A stretch of DNA of 64,000 bases, taken from positions 310,001 to 374,000 of the forward strand of contig NZ_JAJQQZ010000003.1 in assembly GCF_021729015.1 (NCBI RefSeq), read 5' to 3'. The notes beneath the pieces were generated by a model. It had not been told where the DNA came from, did not search any database, and worked only from the letters and a program-made list of their open reading frames with translations. How positions within the stretch are numbered: the first letter of the stretch is position 1; the number at the start of each line of letters is the position of its first letter. A program made the position numbers and the translations under genes. Below are positions 3,542-36,731 of the stretch, one piece after another. The stretch is from Halobacterium rubrum. GTDB lineage: Archaea > Halobacteriota > Halobacteria > Halobacteriales > Halobacteriaceae.

Positions 3542-3613
3542 GGGCTCGTAGATCAGTGGTAGATCATCCCCCTGGCACGGGGAAGGCCTCGGGTTCAAAT
3601 CCCGACGAGTCCA
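3542..3613 (+). tRNA. tRNA-Ala (anticodon GGC)
   Basis: 72 nt cloverleaf. Acceptor stem GGGCTCG pairs with CGAGTCC (one G-T pair), D stem GATC/GATC, anticodon stem TCCCC/GGGGA with loop CTGGCAC (anticodon GGC, reads GCC), T arm TCGGG-TTCAAAT-CCCGA, discriminator A. No CCA is encoded. The 3' terminal 14 nt (TCCCGACGAGTCCA) recur twice downstream, at 3803 and 3888. Confidence 0.95.
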
Positions 3614-4025
3614 CTTCTCTCGACGTCACCCGCGAGCGACCAGAGTGTCGCTCGCGGTGACTAACTCGTAGTGGTGAGGAGGAATTTGAAGCCCTACCAG
3701 TCGCAGCCCGCGAGCGCAGCGAGCAGGAACGTCTGGTTCTGGGTTCAAATCCCGGCAGACCTCCGGTCTGCCGACCTTCGCGAAGCCTTCGGCTTCGCTC
3801 AGTCCCGACGAGTCCATCTTCTTTCACTCACTTCGTTCGTTCAGTCGATAGACTCGTCGACGTCTCGTTCGCTGCGCTCACGAGACTCCCGACGAGTCCA
3901 TCTTTCTCGACCAGTCCAGCTTCCAGCCGCTCACCACGCTCGCGCAGCCGGCCGGCTCTTCGTCCTTCGCGAGGGTGTGATGCGTCGAAGCGACAGATTC
4001 GGCCCCCATCACTCTGGATACACCG
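3614..4025. repeat. Gene-free tract of tRNA-end copies and hairpins
   Basis: No credible gene in 412 bp. It holds two extra copies of the tRNA-Ala 3' end (TCCCGACGAGTCCA at 3803-3816 and 3888-3901) and several inverted repeats: about 15 bp with one bulge at 3625-3661; a perfect 9-bp stem with 3-nt loop at 3753-3773; a perfect 8-bp stem with 3-nt loop at 3780-3798; and a 7-bp stem at 3863-3887. It also holds a T-arm-like TGGGTTCAAATCCCGG at 3740-3755. This looks like the scar of repeated recombination or integration at the tRNA 3' end. Confidence 0.7.
3681..3755 (+). repeat. tRNA-associated dispersed repeat, copy A
   Basis: About 75 bp bounded by T-arm-like inverted ends (ATTTGAAGCCC and GGGTTCAAAT). 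Its core words AGTCGCAGCCCGCGA and CGAGCAGGAACGTCT occur in the same order on the opposite strand at 36421-36492 (copy B), beside tRNA-Gly. Neither copy codes for a protein. Confidence 0.7.
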
Positions 4026-29263: not shown

Positions 29264-29301
29264 GCGGGCGTGACGGGACTGAGCGAACGCTACGCGTTCG
29301 C
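29264..29301. repeat. Copy of tRNA-Arg 3' end plus hairpin
   Basis: The 17-nt GCGGGCGTGACGGGACT at 29264-29280 exactly repeats 29339-29355, which covers the tRNA-Arg 3' end and its boundary. A perfect 8-bp stem with 3-nt loop (GCGAACGC-TAC-GCGTTCGC) follows at 29283-29301. The copy lies downstream of the tRNA 3' end, where integrase attachment sites usually form. Confidence 0.7.
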
Positions 29302-29339
29302 GAAGGTCGTCACGGCCGCGAGTGAACGCCGTGAACGAG

Positions 29340-29412
29340 CGGGCGTGACGGGACTCGAACCCGCGATCTAGAGGTTAGGAACCTCTCGCCGTGTCCGCTT
29401 GGCCACACGCCC
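29340..29412 (-). tRNA. tRNA-Arg (anticodon CCT)
   Basis: Read on the reverse strand: acceptor GGGCGTG/CACGCCC, anticodon stem AGAGG/CCTCT with loop TTCCTAA (anticodon CCT, reads AGG), T arm GCGGG-TTCGAGT-CCCGT, discriminator G. No CCA is encoded. Its promoter lies in the end of the tatA gene. Confidence 0.93.
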
Positions 29413-29453: not shown

Positions 29454-29756
29454 CTAGTTGGCGGCGGTGTCGTCGGCGTCCGTACTGGAGCTCGTCGTGG
29501 TGTCCGTGTCGACGTCCGTGGCGTCCACGTCGGAGTCCTCGGCGTCCGAAGTCGGGTCGGAGCCGTCTTTCATCTCCTGGAGCTCCTGCTCGACTTCCTC
29601 GCGGCCTTTCTGGAACTCGCCGATTGCCTCGCCGCTCGAGCGGGCGAGCTTCGGGATCTTGTTCGCACCGAACAGGAGGACGGCAATGAGCAGGATGACT
29701 GCCCACTCCATGCCGCCCGGCAGCCCGCCGACGAACAGTGGGGTACTGGTGAACAT
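29454..29756 (-). CDS. tatA: Sec-independent protein translocase TatA
   Basis: 100 residues. One membrane helix (EWAVILLIAVLLFGANKIP) with the TatA-type FG, followed by the amphipathic helix KLARSSGEAIGEFQKGREE and an acidic Asp/Ser/Thr tail. It forms part of the twin-arginine translocase, the main export route in haloarchaea; seven predicted Tat substrates lie in this window. The ATG at 29756 is preferred because a TATA box sits 26-33 nt upstream; an upstream in-frame ATG at 29783 overlaps that TATA. Confidence 0.92.
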   Translation of the reverse strand: MFTSTPLFVGGLPGGMEWAVILLIAVLLFGANKIPKLARSSGEAIGEFQKGREEVEQELQEMKDGSDPTSDAEDSDVDATDVDTDTTTSSSTDADDTAAN

Positions 29757-29781
29757 CGCTATCTTGGGGTAGCCTTCTCGC

Positions 29782-29789
29782 AATTATAG
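29782..29789 (-). promoter_or_regulatory. TATA box of tatA
   Basis: CTATAATT on the reverse strand, 26-33 nt upstream of the ATG at 29756; leaderless spacing. Confidence 0.65.
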
Positions 29790-36275: not shown

Positions 36276-36420
36276 ATACTCCTGGCGCTCTCACGTGTGA
36301 AAACGACCGACACCCGGCCACGGCTGTCGAAACGTGAACCGACAGACCGCAGCGAGTGCGCCGGCCGGGAGTGAGCAGCCCGGCAGACTGCTCACGTCGG
36401 ATGCCGCTCTGCGACATCCG

Positions 36421-36492
36421 AAATTTGAACCGATGCGAGACGTTCCTGCTCGCGACGCTTCGCGGGCTGCGACTCGCAGGGTTCAGAATCCC
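36421..36492 (-). repeat. tRNA-associated dispersed repeat, copy B
   Basis: Reverse-strand homologue of copy A at 3681-3755, sharing AGTCGCAGCCCGCGA and CGAGCAGGAACGTCT in the same order and similar spacing, and bounded by GATTCTGAACCCT and GGTTCAAAT. It lies about 30 bp past the 3' end of tRNA-Gly. The rest of 36243-36524 holds only the transducer promoter. Confidence 0.7.
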
Positions 36493-36524: not shown

Positions 36525-36595
36525 TGCGCCGGCCGGGATTTGAACCCGGGCCATGAGCTTGGAAGGCTCAGGTCCTGCCACTAGACCACCGGCGC
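36525..36595 (-). tRNA. tRNA-Gly (anticodon TCC)
   Basis: Reverse strand, 71 nt: acceptor GCGCCGG/CCGGCGC, anticodon loop CTTCCAA (anticodon TCC, reads GGA), T arm CCGGG-TTCAAAT-CCCGG, discriminator A. No CCA is encoded. No TATA box lies at the normal distance upstream; the best one is 137 nt away, at 36732. Confidence 0.95.
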
Positions 36596-36731
36596 TCACT
36601 TCCTTCGCGCCGCGCATCGGCGACCTCCGGCCGCCTCAACACCGGCGCGCTTCGCTTCGCTCGCGCCCCGTGGCTCGCAAACCCTGCGGGTTTGCTCACC
36701 ACCGGCGCTCACCCAGTGCTTTCCTGCCGTC
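36596..36731. repeat. Insertion-like tract with copies of the tRNA-Gly 5' end
   Basis: The 14-nt CCACCGGCGCTCAC at 36586-36599 (tRNA 5' end plus flank) recurs at 36699-36712, and a 9-nt part (CACCGGCGC) near 36640-36648. Between them are inverted repeats: GGCGCG/CGCGCC at 36644-36667, and a perfect 8-bp stem with 3-nt loop GCAAACCC-TGC-GGGTTTGC at 36677-36695. No gene is seen. Confidence 0.7.

Follow-up and report, generated by a model that had tools for sequence, protein, structure and literature searches.

Palindromic cassettes anchored at tRNA ends in haloarchaea, read as DNA-level repeats

The 75 bases past the tRNA-Arg(CCT) gene of the window (the whole 64,000-nt stretch of DNA that was analysed) hold a hairpin framed by an inverse and a direct copy of the 3′ end of that tRNA. 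We put the probability at about one half that this feature belongs to a family of palindromic cassettes that haloarchaea carry at the ends of their tRNA genes, in which the DNA hairpin is under selection or turnover, the arms are re-copied from each tRNA, arrays arise by recombination, and the whole is a selfish or neutral repeat. The cassettes are read here as DNA-level palindromes, neither RNA elements nor plain integrase scars; this DNA reading is favoured over an RNA reading, not proved. In general, a cassette consists of an inverse copy of the tRNA 3′ part, a core hairpin and a direct copy. In type 1, the commonest, an inverse T-arm is followed by a hairpin, whose arms are NNNAGTCG..CGTCTNNN, and then by a copy spanning the T-loop to the discriminator. 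In type 2, identified by eye and by script, the copy runs from the T-stem through the acceptor. A covariance model of type 1, called R1, was built from 27 units of the window's own genome, and its E-values are rough.

Cassettes at the tRNA loci of the window

The features of the three tRNA loci are given below. The type-1 cores at Ala(GGC) and Gly(TCC), with their R1 scores, were both among the rows used to build R1.

29339-29412, minus strand: tRNA-Arg(CCT), source of the copied 3′ end (ARAGORN; Rfam tRNA, 62.2 bits)
29264-29338, minus strand: whole type-2 cassette downstream of tRNA-Arg(CCT) (folding; orthologous cassettes in congeners)
29308-29319, plus strand: inverse acceptor/T-stem copy CGTCACGGCCGC (1 mismatch to the direct copy)
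29283-29301, no strand assigned: core hairpin GCGAACGC-TAC-GCGTTCGC (same position in relatives, 12 aligned type-2 rows)
29264-29280, minus strand: direct copy of the last 17 nt of tRNA-Arg(CCT) (exact match)
3542-3614, plus strand: tRNA-Ala(GGC) (ARAGORN)
3680-3755, plus strand: type-1 core downstream of tRNA-Ala(GGC), with inverse T-arm, core hairpin and T-arm copy (R1, 70.6 bits, E 5e-16)
3780-3816, plus strand: type-2 core hairpin GCGAAGCC-TTC-GGCTTCGC (3780-3798, 8 bp, TTC loop) and copy of the tRNA-Ala 3′ end (at 3806) (sequence match)
3851-3900, plus strand: second type-2 cassette at Ala(GGC), with inverse acceptor GACTCGTCG (3851), hairpin (3864-3884) and acceptor copy (3890) (sequence match)
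36525-36595, minus strand: tRNA-Gly(TCC) (ARAGORN)
36418-36492, minus strand: type-1 core downstream of tRNA-Gly(TCC) (R1, 74.4 bits, E 3.9e-17)
36357-36395, minus strand: copy of the tRNA-Gly 3′ end (36357-36370) and hairpin GTGAGCAG..CTGCTCAC (36371-36395) (sequence match)
36677-36708, minus strand: mirror-image cassette upstream of tRNA-Gly(TCC), with a copy of the tRNA 5′ end (36699-36708) and a hairpin (36677-36695)

As the first-pass annotation had noted, GCGGGCGTGACGGGACT occurs exactly at 29264-29280 and 29339-29355, and ARAGORN places the second site at the 3′ end of tRNA-Arg(CCT). The direct copy comprises the 3′ strand of the T-stem, the 3′ strand of the acceptor and the discriminator. 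The hairpin is also present where it had been described, but it had been said to follow the copy. On the tRNA strand it precedes it, the order being a short spacer, the inverse copy, the core hairpin and the direct copy. In the predicted fold of the cassette, the inverse copy, which encloses the hairpin and had been missed, is base-paired to the direct copy. The loop of the hairpin reads GTA on the tRNA strand and is thus a GNA triloop. Folded as RNA, positions 29264-29337 gave a z-score of -2.31, with 4 of 200 shuffles as good; folded as DNA they gave -2.46, with none of 200 as good. At up to two mismatches, the 17-nt sequence has two matches in the window, both exact, against a shuffle average of 0.19, and 1 of 100 shuffles reached two. 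On this shuffle test and the genome-wide copy counts given below, a chance repeat was rejected as the source of the copy. A gene for a TatA-like small protein, called by eye from the translation, lies directly upstream of the tRNA at 29454-29783.

The three tRNA loci of the window had been described as alike. Copies do occur at all three, but the hairpin adjacent to the copy at Gly(TCC) joins its 8-bp stem with a 9-nt loop and so fits the description of a common 3-nt-loop hairpin only loosely. The "three of three" combination holds for the copies of the window and fails for the whole genome, since 19 of its 43 tRNAs are without such a copy. Both type 1 and type 2 are present at Ala(GGC) and Gly(TCC), and type 2 at Arg(CCT). 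In addition, tRNA-Gly(ccc) and tRNA-Thr(cgt), at other places in the genome, are preceded by sequence that by eye resembles the 5′-side cassette of Gly(TCC).

Occurrence in the genome and among haloarchaea

The host genome is haloarchaeal, with 3.07 Mb and 43 tRNA genes (Rfam), and it was sampled as 40 stretches covering all 43 tRNAs plus five control regions. Its genus is probably Halobacterium, since a unit of a congener (L105) and one of Halobacterium sp. CBA1126 (L266) score alike. A copy was defined as the last 16 nt of the tRNA with at most 3 mismatches. By this definition, 24 of the 43 tRNAs have their own 3′ end repeated in the 300 bp that follow the gene (the weak case being Val(tac), whose copy has 3 mismatches), against 0 of 43 upstream and 5 of 860 random windows drawn from the control regions. 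Perfect hairpins with an 8-bp stem and a 3-nt loop were counted in the sampled stretches, where non-coding DNA was defined via ORFs of at least 120 aa and not via annotation. The 12.8 kb downstream of tRNAs hold 16, the 12.9 kb upstream of them 4, the remaining 51.6 kb of non-coding DNA 15 and the 437.6 kb of coding DNA 55. Per kilobase, the DNA downstream of tRNAs has about four times as many of these hairpins as the other non-coding DNA. Equal frequency of copies and hairpins away from tRNA genes, which the first-pass annotation had named as the result that would count against it, was not seen.

The direct copies match the adjacent tRNA, while the cores are common to different tRNAs. Near-identical cores occur at Val(cac) and Leu(tag), and core sequence is common to unrelated tRNAs and genera. 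Of 110 units, which were admitted at up to 3 mismatches and include loci picked for having a unit, 78 have a copy without any mismatch over 19-24 nt. The type-1 inverse arm differs from its own tRNA by a mean of 2.92 mismatches of 13, against 3.92 (sd 0.08) with shuffled tRNAs, none of 300 shuffles being as low. The inverse acceptor part is often decayed, as columns 4 and 98 pair in 10 of the 27 type-1 rows. At tRNA-Arg(gcg), a 134-bp unit stands in exact tandem duplication. A core hairpin without a tRNA lies at G000:C1:608049-608121 (locus L099, 1501-1573), between genes that by eye appear to be purS and purQ/purL. Dispersal of the hairpins off tRNAs was rejected, this gap being the one clear case; because just 150 of 5757 first-look candidates were scored, further off-tRNA hairpins may exist.

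Searched against its own genome, R1 gave 28 matches at E<1e-4, 27 of them at tRNAs; since the model was built from 27 own-genome units, these matches arise largely by construction and mainly show that few units lie elsewhere. Across the order, 35 of 40 genomes (the window's own and 39 relatives), from 18 of 23 genera, were positive, and 5 were without a match. In a phylum sample of 156 genomes, searched with stricter filters than the order, 28 were positive, all within the order. Two order genomes are among those negatives that are named (108 of the 128 negatives are unlisted by name). The copies downstream of tRNAs, the hairpin density and the same structured unit in most genomes of the order, the window's own included, support the common process that had been suggested from the window.

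A pattern scan of named genomes extends this picture. Among the 80 loci listed, 78 are haloarchaeal, from Haloferax, Halorubrum, Natrinema, Haloarcula, Halococcus, Natronomonas and other genera, and 2 are bacterial, with no tRNA within 1 kb upstream of either. Among the 78 haloarchaeal loci listed, 76 lie just downstream of a tRNA or of a visible tRNA 3′ part. The tRNA was found automatically in 66, where the copy departs from it at 0 to 8 positions in 20 and is accordingly poor in some of the loci listed; owing to introns, N gaps or locus ends, the other 10 were assigned by eye and by an intron-tolerant ARAGORN rerun. At one locus of Halorubrum halodurans (L337, ~1015 bp upstream of the unit), a 1-kb insert with a 286-aa ORF separates tRNA-Gly(ccc) from the cassette. 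Just upstream of the unit in Natronomonas gomsonensis (L294), only a remnant of a tRNA-Arg is left; other DNA interrupts it in the T-stem, in the manner of an element boundary. Runs of 10 N fall in the T-arm of the tRNAs adjoining the cassettes at L280 and L332, where repeats may break assemblies.

Congeneric species differ by entire cassettes. By eye, tRNA-Arg(CCT) in relatives is followed by type 2 only, by type 1 and type 2, by three units or by none. At tRNA-Val(CAC), one congener has two cassettes and another a single cassette, the first unit being of the same kind in both, and in further congeners the tRNA has no cassette or is directly followed by unrelated sequence. A stem of the orthologous tRNA-Val cassette reads CAAG/CTTG in G002, CGAG/CTCG in G009 and G008, and CCAG/CTGG in G004, so that one pair is A-T, G-C or C-G by congener. 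In two of the congeners with unrelated sequence after tRNA-Val(CAC), putative integrated elements span G005:C13:15589-21362 (~5.7 kb) and G010:C1:524287-526351 (~2 kb). These inserts run up to longer tRNA copies (35 and 29 nt) that immediately precede an R1 unit, an arrangement that would fit insertion of an element between tRNA and cassette.

Structure, strand signals and competing explanations

The own-genome type-1 alignment was made from 29 automatic core matches, of which 5 were dropped by eye as spurious; from the remaining 24, one duplicate and Leu(caa) were left out, and 5 hand additions brought it to 27 rows. In it, 84.5% of cells are paired (shuffles: 73.6%), and two-sided changes number 63, where shuffles give 20.9. 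RNAalifold alone predicted 4 pairs on this alignment (-1.55 kcal/mol). A second alignment, fitted to R1 and thus to a model derived from the window's own genome, drew on 100 loci of other genomes, namely the 78 named haloarchaeal loci and 22 of 26 loci from the R1 search of relatives. Its 144 rows were reduced to 126 by removing the last 10 (antisense re-hits) and identical rows. The named-loci scan pattern fixes AACCCTG, AGTCGCA and CGTCT and leaves two NN pairs free, so that the T·T mismatch of the core and most inner pairs are biased in the rows from those loci. The two stem pairs free of the search pattern are CG 54, GC 51, TA 7 and AT 2 in one case, and AT 61, CG 38 and GC 19 in the other. 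The core-stem pairs of type 1 thus covary.

For type 2, 12 rows of the Arg(CCT) cassette were hand-chosen from units found in relatives. Here 89% of cells pair against 85.3% in shuffles, and two-sided changes occur at 3 pairs, where shuffles give 1.8 and 104 of 500 were as high. Sliding the structure by +2 gave a covariation score of 0.127 against 0.121. With few two-sided changes and an equally good slide, the covariation of type 2 is weak. Of its 12 aligned units, 11 have a GNA triloop or the complement TNC, on either strand. In the hairpins of the sampled DNA, such loops make up 11 of 17 downstream of tRNAs, 8 of 57 in coding DNA, 4 of 16 in other non-coding DNA and 10.5% in short stems. 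GNA loops closed by C-G form unusually stable DNA mini-hairpins, d(GCGNAGC).

A structured RNA is the alternative that survives best, although we consider it unlikely. The cassette would lie in the tRNA 3′ trailer as an extended acceptor/T-stem minihelix related to the Haloferax t-element, and would be cut by RNase P and tRNase Z or be a small RNA. The position of the cassette downstream of the tRNA and on the same strand fits this, as do the type-1 covariation and the fixed orientation of the type-1 core, whose loop on the tRNA strand is GNA in 70 of 107 cases, TNC in 4 and neither in 33. In the predicted folds of the 110 units, the T-arm copy pairs with a mean probability of 0.86 and the acceptor in part (0.58). 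The t-elements of H. volcanii share with the cassettes the tRNA acceptor-like ends in haloarchaea, and PMC4326828 describes them as RNase P and tRNase Z substrates and places the known t-element upstream of 5S rRNA. Unlike t-elements, the cassettes match their adjacent tRNA, and their T-loop copy is mostly paired away: it is paired (probability >0.5) in 107 of 110 predicted folds, mostly in place of a T-arm, and the canonical acceptor and T-arm fold was not found. An RNA-strand signature is also lacking. A selected RNA of the tRNA strand should show more G·U than A·C, and no such excess was found, with 62 against 56 in the outer helix and 3 against 8 in the inner helix (126 rows), and with 48 against 36 (p 0.23) in an earlier tally of 93 units. 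The type-2 triloops that switch strand, and the mirror-image cassette on the 5′ side of tRNA-Gly, also argue against an RNA. A known RNA family was rejected on the one locus scanned against Rfam (L053, E<=1), where only the tRNA exceeds its cut-off.

Alternatively, the cassettes might be a mutational by-product, in which quasi-palindrome template switching and unequal recombination at tRNA ends make and perfect palindromes with neither an element nor a function. We regard this as distinctly unlikely. It would suit the outer hairpin of the tRNA-Val cassette, whose loop is CAGCGT in G002 and G009 and the reverse complement in G004, as well as the exact duplication at tRNA-Arg(gcg) and the almost purely Watson-Crick core stems (818 of 854 inner-stem cells in the other-genome rows, with 3 G·U). 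It does not sit well with a shared core sequence at unrelated tRNAs and genera, nor with the confinement of all 28 positives of the phylum sample to one order. In addition, a T·T mismatch is retained in the core stem of 17 of the 27 own-genome type-1 rows (A·A in 0), and arm-to-arm correction would erase it.

Attachment-site scars, left by tRNA-integrating viruses or plasmids with tyrosine recombinases after loss of the element, are the least probable of the three. Integrases do leave copies of tRNA 3′ ends, and the direct copy of a cassette resembles the integrase attachment sites attB, attL and attR in repeating the 3′ part of the adjacent tRNA. Haloarchaeal partial tRNAs are also reported, some beside a full copy (PMC7921747) or at prophages (PMC3119063). 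Unlike in such sites, the copy in a cassette begins at the T-loop or T-stem, and with it go an inverse copy and a conserved hairpin, both of which a scar leaves unexplained; moreover, no element stands between the copies, and copies occur at 24 of 43 tRNAs of a single genome. The two tRNA-Val inserts, which sit between tRNA and cassette and end in longer copies, and the attP of HF2, whose copy extends to the D-arm with no R1 match there (the best of the stretch, 14 bits, lies elsewhere), counter a plain integrase scar. A strict cassette pattern had 0 matches in viral contigs, and a loose motif picked out 84 stretches, in 80 of which R1 had no significant match (best E 0.51). A blastn search of limited reach with an 88-nt cassette query had no match in phage and plasmid records. 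The cassette structure was thus not found in viral or plasmid attP, as covered by the 80 motif-chosen viral stretches, HF2 and blastn.

Two other known systems share features with the cassettes. The attC sites of integrons are imperfect palindromes with conserved structure that form unit-wise arrays. The cassettes resemble them as imperfect palindromes in which structure is conserved over sequence, clearly in type 1 and weakly in type 2, but differ in that their arms derive from tRNA. Cargo genes between cassettes were not seen in the named loci listed, where the position of 76 of the 78 haloarchaeal loci just downstream of a tRNA leaves no room for a gene, and cargo-carrying cassettes were rejected on this ground. 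REP/REPIN and PATE elements, related to IS200/IS605, are small intergenic palindromic repeats. Unlike these, the cassettes are tied to tRNA ends and are tRNA-specific, and the window's genome, with 28 repeats, has no match to the Y1 transposase profile (Y1_Tnp, PF01797). PF01797 is likewise absent from G004, G007, G008, G012, G027, G028, G031 and G038, which hold 12 to 30 repeats each (some of these genomes being incomplete), and it was found in G032, G033 and G034, all without a repeat. Since its presence does not track the repeats, mobilisation by an IS200/IS605 Y1 transposase was rejected, and from these sequences the cassettes seem not to need one. PATEs are named in PMC3119063.

A possible copying mechanism and its meaning

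Returning to the DNA-level reading, we infer selection or turnover on a DNA hairpin or cruciform because G·U is not favoured and type-2 GNA triloops occur on either strand. The single orientation of the type-1 core and its T·T mismatch stand against this reading and would suit a transcribed RNA too. A cassette would reach a new tRNA via the conserved T-loop sequence GGTTCAAATC (type 1) or via the T-stem (type 2). These ends of the core might pair with the new tRNA gene and be extended outwards both ways, copying the 3′ end of that tRNA, which would yield tRNA-specific direct and inverse arms. The tRNA would be spared, because its intact 3′ end stays in place. The arrays may then grow and shrink through recombination between the 3′-end copies. 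Most probably, the cassette acts as a repeat that is selfish or neutral. We infer the T-loop priming step from shared cores with tRNA-matched arms; no enzyme, circle or transposition event was seen. In its boldest form, which we offer tentatively, the cassettes would be a new class of retargetable DNA palindromes, in which a T-loop-ended hairpin core invades tRNA genes and re-templates both arms from each host tRNA, so that one family adapts to many tRNAs without a dedicated integration scar.

If our reading is correct, a large share of haloarchaeal tRNA genes is followed by a structured, tRNA-specific repeat, of which we found no description in open-licence papers on tRNA-end repeats and on attC-like sites at tRNAs (weak evidence of absence). 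Such a repeat could account for some of the "partial tRNAs" annotated in haloarchaeal genomes, and it would caution against taking every copy of a tRNA 3′ end for a virus scar. Species of Haloferax, for which genetics is established, are among the named genomes with cassettes. The cassettes would also provide a tractable example of an element whose arms are copied anew from its target.
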